Shown: one piece after another, positions 29,936-33,057 of the stretch
Layout: the number at the start of each line of letters is the position of its first letter
Position numbering within the stretch: the stretch's first letter is position 1
Assembly (NCBI GenBank): GCA_913057165.1
Contig: CAJXNS010000004.1
Span: forward strand, 1-64,000
DNA from: an uncultured Trueperaceae bacterium
Lineage (GTDB): Bacteria; Deinococcota; Deinococci; Deinococcales; Trueperaceae
DNA length: 64,000 nucleotides
Reading direction: 5' to 3'
Notes under the pieces: model-generated
Database searches by the model: none
Told to the model about the DNA's origin: nothing
Seen by the model: the letters and a program-made list of their open reading frames with translations, nothing else
Program-made: the position numbers and the translations under genes

Positions 29936-32098
29936 GTGACGCTTCTTGAGTTGCAGGACGTGGGGTTGGCGTGGGATGGCAAAGCGGTCCTGCACGGCGT
30001 CGATTGGACGGTCGCGGCGGGTGAGGTGTGGGGGCTTGTGGGGGATAACGGCAGTGGCAAGTCGACACTTTTGCAGCTGCTCGCAGGTGGCCTTGAACCG
30101 CACGACGGTCGGCTGATCCGCAGTCCCGGTGTTCGGGTTGCCTTGGTCACGGCCGGTGAACCTGAGCCTGTGTACGCCCGCACGCTGATGGATGAGGCGC
30201 TCACGTCGTGGCAGGAGGCGCGTGACGCGGTGGCTGCTGAGGCGCAGAGGCTGGCGGGCGATCCCGGGCGTCTGGAGCGTTATGCAGCGGTGCTTGAACG
30301 CTTTGAGCGGCTGGGTGGGTGGTCGGCGCCGGAGCGGCATGAGGCTGCTTGGCAGAAGGCCGTGCCGGAGGCGTTCGCGGCGTCAGACCGGCCGCTGAGC
30401 CCAGGATTGGCGCAGTTAGCGCGGGTGGTGGGGGCGGTCCTTGCCCGCCCAGATGTGCTCCTGCTGGATGAGCCCACGCTGCCGTTGGATGTGGTGGAGC
30501 ATGAACGATTGGTGCAGGTCTTGGCGCGGCCCGCTGAAGGCACCGCGGTGGTGGTGGCAAGCCACGACCGGGCGTTGCTGCGCAGCATCACGAACGCCAC
30601 GGCACGCGTGCATTCAGGCCGGCTGCAACCGCGGCGTCTGGCGTTTGCATCGGCTGAGGTGCAGCGCCGTACCGATGGCCGACGCCAAGCGCGGCTCGCG
30701 CGCGAAGCGAAGAAAGAGCACCACCGTTTGCAGGCGTCTGCCGCGCAGGCGCAACGGTTTGGTGCGGCGGCTGGCCGCGGGAAACGTCTGGCGCAGCGTG
30801 CAGCGCAAGCGGGGGCGCAAGCTCAGGTGACGCCTGACACGGCGCCTCAGGCGGTGGTGGATGGCGCTTGGTCGTGGCCCACGCGCGCGAAGGACGGTCA
30901 GCGTGTGCTGTCGGTACGTTCGCTGGGGGTTGCGTCGGCCTTTTGGGATGTCAGTTTCGACGTGCGTATGGGCGAACGCTGGGTGCTGCTGGGACGCGGT
31001 GACGCCCGTGCGGACGCCCTTCTTGAGGTGCTGGCGGGGCGGCGCGCCAACGACAACCCGCGGGCGTTCGTCCGCTGGGGTGGCCGCATCCGGGTGCATG
31101 CGTGGACCGGGCGCCACGGAGCATCCGAGTTGACCCCGCTCGCGTGGGTATCGCAAGGGGTGGACGAGCGTGCTGCACGGCAAGCGTTGCTGCAGACCGG
31201 CCTGCCGCATGAGGCGCTGGTGCGGCCGTGGACGACCCTGTCGACCGGTCAGCAGGCGCGCGTTCGGCTAGCCAAGATGGTGACCGAACAGCCTGATGTC
31301 ATCCTGCTCGATCGGCCCGAGCGTGGCCTGGACCTGGCTGGACTTGAATGGCTTGAGCAGGCCTTGGCGAACGTGCCTGCTGCGTTGGTGCTGGCAACGC
31401 ACGATTTGGCGTTGGCTGAGGCGGTGGCGGACGAGGCGGCACAACTGACGCAGGAGGGGCTGGTGCGTTACCGCGGTGGGGTCCAAGGATGGCGCCGCGG
31501 CCGCAAGCGGCTCACGGTGGACGCGGCCCCTACCGACGCGTCAGATCCGCCTGGGTCGCAAGAGGACCAGCGGGAACTCCAAACCTTAGAAGACCAGCGT
31601 TTGGCGCTGGAGGTGTGGTTAGCAGATCCCACGCAGGGAGCGCCGCGGGAGCGTGCCCGCGCCGAGCGCACCCGCCGCGAGCTCACGGGGACGTGGTTGG
31701 AGGCGGTGGACGCGAACCTACCCGAACCGAAACCACGTTTCGCGGCGGTGGAACCCCCGCTTCGCTTAGAGGCGGACCGTCATGCAGCCGGGCTGACGTT
31801 CATCGCTCCCGATTGGCCGTCGCTACCGACCATCGTGCGTCACGACCAGGTGGTTCACCTATCGCTTCCAGACCCGCCGTCGGCGTGCTGGCTGCCGTCT
31901 GTGCGACGTAAGGCGCTCGTACTGGCACTCCGGCTTACCATGGAGGTACTCGCCCCCAAAGCGGTCCAGACCGCCGCTATCGGCCGCACGGAACCTCCTG
32001 CGCCGTTTGCCCGGCTCGATGAGGATTGGTGGGTGGCGACCCTTGAAGGGTTCGAAACACACCAAGGGTACGTGCGCCTTGAGGAGTCACCCGCATGA
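29936..32098 (+). CDS. ABC-F-like duplicated ATPase with one degenerate ATP site
   Basis: Soluble protein of 720 residues with two ABC domains and no membrane segment, so ABC-F-like (ribosome-associated ATPases) rather than a transporter. NBD1: Walker A GDNGSGKS (36-43), Walker B LLLDEP (175-180), switch His210, but signature LSPGL (154-158) instead of LSGGQ. NBD2: no Walker A (GRGDARAD, 353-360), Walker B with the catalytic Glu replaced by Arg (LLDRPE, 457-462), yet an intact signature LSTGQ (435-439). An Arg/Ala-rich linker (235-300) joins them, and a tail of over 200 residues with a coiled coil (about 550-610) ends the protein. Starts with GTG; overlaps the DUF3810 gene by ATGA. Confidence 0.82.
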   Translation: MTLLELQDVGLAWDGKAVLHGVDWTVAAGEVWGLVGDNGSGKSTLLQLLAGGLEPHDGRLIRSPGVRVALVTAGEPEPVYARTLMDEALTSWQEARDAVAAEAQRLAGDPGRLERYAAVLERFERLGGWSAPERHEAAWQKAVPEAFAASDRPLSPGLAQLARVVGAVLARPDVLLLDEPTLPLDVVEHERLVQVLARPAEGTAVVVASHDRALLRSITNATARVHSGRLQPRRLAFASAEVQRRTDGRRQARLAREAKKEHHRLQASAAQAQRFGAAAGRGKRLAQRAAQAGAQAQVTPDTAPQAVVDGAWSWPTRAKDGQRVLSVRSLGVASAFWDVSFDVRMGERWVLLGRGDARADALLEVLAGRRANDNPRAFVRWGGRIRVHAWTGRHGASELTPLAWVSQGVDERAARQALLQTGLPHEALVRPWTTLSTGQQARVRLAKMVTEQPDVILLDRPERGLDLAGLEWLEQALANVPAALVLATHDLALAEAVADEAAQLTQEGLVRYRGGVQGWRRGRKRLTVDAAPTDASDPPGSQEDQRELQTLEDQRLALEVWLADPTQGAPRERARAERTRRELTGTWLEAVDANLPEPKPRFAAVEPPLRLEADRHAAGLTFIAPDWPSLPTIVRHDQVVHLSLPDPPSACWLPSVRRKALVLALRLTMEVLAPKAVQTAAIGRTEPPAPFARLDEDWWVATLEGFETHQGYVRLEESPA

Positions 32099-33057
32099 GG
32101 CTTGCGTGGGCGTTGGGCATGGCACTGCTCGTCACGCTCTTGGGGGCGGTCTTGGGTGGATCGCAAGCCTGGGCGGAGGCGTGGGCGGCGGCGTTCACGG
32201 GACCGTGGGCGGCAAGTTGGGCGTCGCTTCAGGCGGTCTTCCCCATGCCGGTCTTGCCTTGGCTAGCCGGCTTCTGGGTGTTGCTGGCTGTCGCCTGGGG
32301 GCGGCACCGACCTTGGCGGCAGCAGGCGCTGATTGTCCTCACCCTTGGCTTGGTCGCGGTGGCGAGTTTCCAGATCGCGTGGGGTTTTCATGCGGGGCGT
32401 CCGTCCGGCCTGGAGCGCTACGGTTTGACCGCCAAGGCCACCCCAACCGAGGCGGACCAGGTAGCGGCGCGCTTGGCGGCGCAATTGCGGTCTGGACGTT
32501 CAGAGCCGTTTGATCTGCCCGGGGCGCTCGTTGCATCGGGAGAACGCCTCGAGGGCATGACGGGTGTGACGCGCCTTCCACCGGAAACCGTGACCGTACC
32601 GGGTTGGCTTTTTGGGCCGCTTGACTTGGCTGGGGTGGTGTCGCCGTGGACGTACGAGGTGCACGTCAATGGTGGGTTGCCCGCTTGGGCGCAAGCCGCT
32701 GTCGTGGCGCACGAGCGTGCCCACTTGGCAGGTTTTGCCTCCGAACAGGACGCCGAGTGGGTGGGGGCGGTGGCCGGCCTGACGTCCGGTCATCCCGATG
32801 CCGCGTACGCCGCGGCGTTGTGGATGTGGATCAAAGCCCCCGCCGACCTGCGGGCGCAGTACGACCCAGGACCAACGGCGAGGGCAGATATCGAAGCGTT
32901 ACGCGAGGCCTTGGCGCGCTACGACGCCTTTGACGCGCGCTGGGCGTGGCGGATCTATGACGCGTGGCTTAGGTCGCGCGGGGACACCTTAGGCACGGCA
33001 GGATACGCAGCCGGCTTCGACGCGCTCGTGCGTGCCCACGCAGGCGGCTGGTGGTGA
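32095..33057 (+). CDS. DUF3810-type membrane zinc metallopeptidase
   Basis: Protein of 320 residues with N-terminal transmembrane helices (about 3-22, 52-68, 77-95) followed by a domain containing HERAH (H206, E207, H210) and a nearby acidic cluster EQDAEW (217-222), the HExxH-x-GFxxE arrangement of DUF3810 proteins. The zinc-peptidase assignment rests on this motif; no substrate is known. Coupled to the ABC-F-like gene by a 4-base overlap, and convergent with the M3 peptidase gene 14 bases on. Confidence 0.78.
   Translation: MRLAWALGMALLVTLLGAVLGGSQAWAEAWAAAFTGPWAASWASLQAVFPMPVLPWLAGFWVLLAVAWGRHRPWRQQALIVLTLGLVAVASFQIAWGFHAGRPSGLERYGLTAKATPTEADQVAARLAAQLRSGRSEPFDLPGALVASGERLEGMTGVTRLPPETVTVPGWLFGPLDLAGVVSPWTYEVHVNGGLPAWAQAAVVAHERAHLAGFASEQDAEWVGAVAGLTSGHPDAAYAAALWMWIKAPADLRAQYDPGPTARADIEALREALARYDAFDARWAWRIYDAWLRSRGDTLGTAGYAAGFDALVRAHAGGWW

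Follow-up and report, generated by a model that had tools for sequence, protein, structure and literature searches.

Can an ABC-F protein have only one of its two ATP sites left in working order, and if so, what might such a protein do? The question is raised by a gene in the window, which is the whole 64,000-nucleotide stretch analysed here, from an uncultured Trueperaceae bacterium. A preliminary description, made from this one sequence, proposed that the protein's motifs leave exactly one competent ATP site and that selection for one active site, not random decay, is responsible.

The gene starts with GTG and has no internal stop codons. Two stretches of its product match the Pfam ABC_tran profile (E=2.2e-26), corresponding to two nucleotide-binding domains (NBDs). 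The protein exhibits no transmembrane stretch, as no 19-residue segment has a hydrophobicity above 1.6, and so it shares with ABC-F proteins the arrangement of two NBDs in one chain without a membrane domain. A search against subfamily profiles pointed in the same direction, in that the top NCBIfam matches are ABC-F families, but all scores lie well beneath the curated cut-offs. For NF000355, the score is 162 bits against a cut-off of 380, while an intact orthologue from the host's family (L002) reaches 369.7 bits and is thus also slightly under the cut-off. A single-sequence structure prediction of the protein has a mean pLDDT of 38, which is not reliable.

In the following, composite site 1 pairs the Walker A, Walker B and H-loop motifs of NBD1 with the NBD2 signature. 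Composite site 2 consists of the Walker motifs, Q-loop and H-loop of NBD2 with the signature of NBD1. The gene and the motifs of the two sites are located as follows.

29936..32098, + strand: ABC-F-like protein of 720 amino acids with tandem NBDs and a C-terminal extension (open reading frame, two Pfam ABC_tran matches, NCBIfam, hydrophobicity)
30041..30067, + strand: Walker A of NBD1, GDNGSGKST, residues 36-44, site 1, kept
30143..30154, + strand: Q-loop of NBD1, LVTA, residues 70-73, site 1, Gln replaced by Ala
30395..30409, + strand: signature of NBD1, LSPGL, residues 154-158, site 2, lost
30455..30478, + strand: Walker B of NBD1, VLLLDEPT (LLLDEPT at residues 175-181), site 1, kept
30554..30565, + strand: H-loop of NBD1, VASH (SHD), site 1, kept
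30992..31018, + strand: Walker A position of NBD2, GRGDARADA, residues 353-361, site 2, lost
31238..31252, + strand: signature of NBD2, LSTGQ, residues 435-439, site 1, kept
31298..31321, + strand: Walker B of NBD2, VILLDRPE (ILLDRPE at residues 456-462), Arg in place of the Glu, site 2, lost
31391..31405, + strand: H-loop of NBD2, LATHD (THD), an element of site 2, present

The translated reading frame bears out the motif calls of the preliminary description: NBD1 keeps Walker A and B with a broken signature (LSPGL), and NBD2 has lost Walker A and the catalytic Glu (LLDRPE) with LSTGQ intact. The four losses that were claimed do fall on the same site, but only three were listed. The loss of Q-loop 2 makes four, so that site 2 lacks Walker A2, the Walker B2 Glu, Q-loop 2 and signature 1. 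The further claim that all retained motifs belong to the other site needs amendment on both sides, given that H-loop 2 is kept at site 2 and the Gln of Q-loop 1 is lost at site 1. Because of the latter, site 1 of the window protein is not fully canonical. This Gln is missing in the window copy only, and is retained in the three sister copies from the genus (L041-L043). Signature 2 reads LSTGQ in the window protein versus LSGGE in these sisters. Neither the Q-loop 1 loss nor the loss of the inter-domain linker from three of the four genus copies, discussed below, had been noticed previously.

For a single sequence, the chance that three losses among six catalytic elements share one composite site is 2/20, or one in ten. 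The single copy is therefore merely suggestive, and comparisons are needed.

We found full-length relatives in most genomes of the host's family (39 genomes in the family set). The locus has the gene order parE/gyrB, proA, SDR, amidohydrolase, small DUF, photolyase, ABC-F, DUF3810 and M3 peptidase. As this order recurs across the family, with local losses, the relatives are positional orthologues. One such local loss occurs in genome G007 (L162, G007:C3:30000-49000), in which the ABC-F, DUF3810 and photolyase genes are all missing and the gap from the small DUF to the M3 peptidase is about 180 bases (L162 9223-9403). The ABC-F gene is thus dispensable in some lineages. Within the host genus, the gene is present in four of five genomes, counting that of the window (G000, an assembly of 1.78 Mb in 106 contigs). 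In the fifth (G001), an assembly with 80% completeness, the contig stops short of the locus. A scan of contigs for named public relatives retrieved only distant ABC-F proteins, from Bosea, Neorhizobium and an archaeon.

A motif census found the one-sided site loss in all four genus copies and in none of 60 other ABC-F sequences. These 60 are orthologues from the host's family and from other families of the phylum, together with ABC-F paralogues, and NBD1 is truncated in two of the sequences. Outside the genus, both Walker A Lys residues and both Walker B Glu residues are kept, and both signatures are recognisable. In the genus copies, signature 1 reads LSPGL, VEPAL, LSPAA or LPPDA, with Pro at position 3 throughout, and the Walker A2 position reads GRGDARADA, GANGSGASA, GQGDAGPGL or GQGGGGPAA. 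At the position of the Walker B2 Glu, the window protein has Arg and both L042 and L043 have Thr, whereas L041 retains the Glu. All four copies retain Walker A1, Walker B1, H-loop 1 and signature 2. The losses therefore lie in the Walker motifs of one NBD and in the partner signature, as in a degenerate composite site, with Q-loop 1 of the window protein as the exception. One sequence from outside the genus (L022) has LSPGE at signature 1 and is otherwise intact, and therefore a Pro at position 3 of the signature is by itself no proof of a dead site.

It had been envisaged that intact homologues would reduce the case to a single degenerate copy. Orthologues in other genera are indeed intact, but every genus copy found is degenerate, and on the same side. 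By gene order and by the tree described below, the window protein descends from proteins having ABC-F features. It departs from them in that canonical ATP motifs are not found at both composite sites. A second ABC-F protein with both sites intact is encoded in all four genus genomes and may fill the standard role.

The assemblies of the genus genomes are fragmented and of the metagenome type, which would be the circumstance for an assembly or annotation artefact. However, the signature-1 Pro and the loss of the Walker A2 Lys are common to four independent assemblies, with open frames and the same gene order in each. Given this agreement, we rejected an artefact as hardly credible.

In a tree built without the motif columns (a quick tree without bootstrap), the four genus copies group together as a single clade (SH-aLRT 99), and the window copy branches outside L041+(L042,L043) (SH-aLRT 96). 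Branches within the genus clade sum to about 3.1 changes per column, and the window branch is long, with 1.12 changes per column. The signature-1 change from Gly to Pro and the loss of the Walker A2 Lys are common to all four copies, and for this reason they are probably ancestral to the genus. The initial losses may represent a single event, in a variant found in only four species. The census and the tree together imply two later losses of the Walker B2 Glu, both on the side that was dead by then. The pattern previously termed correlated decay thus began as shared ancestral losses.

To compare constraint, we considered family-conserved columns, i.e., those conserved at at least 90% in the rest of the family. 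All four genus copies keep 20 of 21 such columns at site 1 and 8 of 19 at site 2. The corresponding values are 27 of 44 for the rest of NBD1, 27 of 43 for the rest of NBD2, and 19 of 27 for the tail. The split between site 1 and site 2 was seen in none of three control clades. Fisher's test of site 1 versus site 2 gives p=3e-4 (p=3e-3 with all orthologues as the reference), a guide and not a strict test, because the columns depend on one another and the copies have the initial losses in common. The only close pair within the genus, L042 and L043, has an NG86 dN of 0.16 and a dS of 0.45, where the dS is unreliable because GC3 is about 97%. The ratio of about 0.35 fits purifying selection. Selection for the one remaining site is thereby backed more strongly than it could have been from one sequence, and the evolutionary pattern of one-sided loss is well supported by these comparisons. 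They show site 2 as disabled in the genus lineage and eroding further, and site 1 as under strong constraint.

These numbers also bear on the idea that selection on the gene is relaxed, i.e., that the gene is drifting to loss in the genus, that its one-sidedness is early decay and that site 1 will be next. The long window branch, the Q-loop 1 loss in the window protein, the absence of the gene pair from the G007 locus and the intact ABC-F paralogue in the genus genomes would all be in keeping with such drift, and three of six losses would fall on one site by chance one time in ten. However, 20 of 21 columns at site 1 compare with an NBD background of 54 of 87, and reading frames are open across four diverged species, with the dN/dS ratio from the one close pair at about 0.35. 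Moreover, the tail is among the best-conserved regions, with 42-44% identity to the window protein among the genus sisters. We therefore regard drift to loss as unlikely.

The linker between the two NBDs provides a further distinction among the genus copies. In ABC-F proteins, the inter-domain linker reaches toward the ribosomal peptidyl-transferase centre.

30632..30910, + strand: inter-NBD linker (P-site tRNA-interaction region), of normal length in the window protein

H-loop 1 and Walker A2 are 143 residues apart in the window protein and 137-186 in 59 others, versus 90 in L041, 94 in L043 and 108 in L042. Judged by this length, the linker is lost in L041-L043 and kept in the window protein. 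On the sequence tree, this is a single loss, on the branch leading to L041-L043. The P-site tRNA-interaction motif of M. tuberculosis EttA corresponds to residues 239-307 (PMC8782954). Given this span, the 35-55 missing residues would take away most of the structure that interacts with P-site tRNA. For the window linker, a helix is predicted over residues 232-294, in the model with a mean pLDDT of 38. The PF12848 linker profile does not match the window protein, and it does match a family orthologue.

The window's linker of normal length, together with this long predicted helix, is what would be expected if the protein were still an ordinary ABC-F translation factor, binding the ribosome but driven by a single hydrolytic site, with the linker loss in its sisters being a separate matter. 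The ABC-F families among the top NCBIfam matches would agree, as would precedents for unequal sites, namely asymmetric site action in ABCE1 (PMC6124641) and asymmetric nucleotide engagement in EttA (PMC8782954). By contrast, the linker is gone from three of the four genus copies, the window protein lacks the PF12848 match, and its 162 bits are set against a cut-off of 380 and about 370 for the intact family orthologue. A role as an ordinary translation factor is thus possible, but we consider it somewhat unlikely.

The tail of the protein was previously described as having no recognised family.

31583..32071, + strand: C-terminal domain, a helical hairpin and then a beta/alpha region (profile, structure prediction)

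There is indeed no Pfam match for residues 550-712, and a PDB profile search with the tail yielded chance-level matches only. However, the tail is a domain conserved through the whole orthologue group. A profile built for it detects the domain in 56 of 111 phylum genomes, with strong matches within the family and weak ones, often to the hairpin only, in other families. Structure prediction for the tail (mean pLDDT 45) suggests, at low confidence, the order helix-helix-strands-helix-helix-strand. Pfam's GNAT families do not match the tail, and an hhalign comparison of the tail with GNAT is weak, with a probability of 14% and a score of 24.4 that is equalled by 3 of 100 block shuffles. The helix-strand in this alignment is in the expected register. 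A degenerate GNAT-like fold is thus a lead and not a result. In three orthologues, L045 (G022), L023 (G036) and L044 (G030), roughly 30-40 residues are inserted into the C-terminal domain, and a longer insertion occurs in L017 (G033).

Immediately downstream lies a gene that might be functionally associated with the ABC-F protein.

32095..33057, + strand: DUF3810 membrane protein with a HERAH motif (PF12725 at 4.1e-24, synteny, hydrophobic stretches)

The ABC-F stop codon overlaps the DUF3810 start codon (ATGA, 32095-32098). The two genes are adjacent in most of the family, and this adjacency is absent at the loci inspected in other families. The neighbour is thus no ABC permease but a membrane protein that carries a metalloprotease-like motif, and this motif (HExxH) is present in 22 of the 22 relatives examined. 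Our literature search found no paper on DUF3810. In genome G006 (L161, G006:C71, 10712-12812), DUF3810 is kept without the ABC-F gene and overlaps a GNAT-like gene at the place expected for ABC-F, and HGLAH replaces HExxH. Their adjacency may point to a common function of the ABC-F and DUF3810 proteins, and G006 counts against it.

The genus protein combines properties of several known systems. Like EttA, Uup, the ARE ABC-F proteins and those of the TlrC/CarA/OleB type, it has tandem NBDs in one chain and no membrane domain, a helical insert in NBD1, a C-terminal extension and, in the window species, a linker of normal length. Unlike in EttA, whose sites both have conserved motifs (PMC8782954), one site is dead, and the linker is missing from three of the four copies. 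In EttA, the two nucleotides are engaged asymmetrically before hydrolysis (PMC8782954). The ribosome recycling factor ABCE1 is likewise soluble and has two NBDs, with sites that differ in function (PMC6124641). However, both ABCE1 sites have consensus motifs (PMC12937102), and the asymmetry is functional and does not come from motif loss. ABC-F proteins in which the linker or arm is deleted or shortened are reported by Murina et al. 2019 (PMC6723617), and the main text of that paper contains no word starting with "degenera". In the open-access literature covered by our search, we found no naturally degenerate composite site in an ABC-F protein. A naturally one-sited ABC-F protein thus seems to be unreported there, which is no proof that none has been described.

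A close parallel in the motifs is with the asymmetric exporters Pdr5, TAP, CFTR, MRP1 and TmrAB, in which one composite site is degenerate and the other is kept. However, these are membrane transporters, whereas the window protein has no transmembrane stretch or export domain. Pdr5 is a near precedent for losing almost every motif of one site, which in its case is altered at the Walker A Lys, the Walker B Glu, the H-loop His and the partner signature (PMC7756269). The bad Walker motifs of Pdr5 are in NBD1 and its bad signature is in NBD2, which is the reverse of the genus protein, and the genus protein retains H-loop 2. The function of type I exporters is compatible with one degenerate site, and ATP has been proposed to act as a permanent glue at degenerate sites (PMC7756269). 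This glue idea, together with the loss of the Q-loop 1 Gln in the window protein, is the ground for supposing that the genus protein binds ATP at site 1 without hydrolysing it and gives the tail a structural scaffold. The Walker B1 Glu and the H-loop 1 His would not be needed for binding only, but both are kept in all four copies, and we judge a non-hydrolysing scaffold to be quite improbable.

We favour, at a probability of about 0.58, the interpretation that the genus protein is an ATP switch with one working site, whose output has moved from the ribosome toward the tail. Site 2 was disabled by the signature-1 change from Gly to Pro and the loss of the Walker A2 Lys, probably in the ancestor of the genus. 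ATP held between the NBD1 Walker A and B motifs and the NBD2 signature would then close the NBDs, and hydrolysis at site 1 is predicted to open them, with the dead site 2 acting as a mere hinge or interface. A shift of the switch's output from the ribosomal P site to the C-terminal domain would be the weaker part of this proposal, drawn from the conservation of the tail. The co-transcribed DUF3810 membrane protein would be a possible partner in the new output. In L041-L043, the output would no longer be the ribosomal P site. The window species, with its full-length linker, would be an intermediate in which the P site is perhaps no longer the only output and which may still bind ribosomes.

Comparison of the four species shows the linker as lost in three of them and the tail domain as evidently conserved. 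We infer the function of the genus protein from these patterns, which suggest a move to a different job. Because a linker persists in the window species, the dead site would have preceded its loss elsewhere in the genus. A fuller sequence of events, in which the dead site came first, the linker loss next, and the C-terminal domain with DUF3810 then became the output of a protein that no longer probes the ribosome, is one that we put forward only tentatively and as rather doubtful.

The need of ABC-F proteins for both ATP sites has usually been probed with engineered mutants. Here, a natural series is found at one chromosomal position: intact orthologues, a one-site protein that has kept its linker, and one-site proteins that lack it. 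This series makes the order of the losses visible, and it offers matched proteins for testing each ATP site and the linker.
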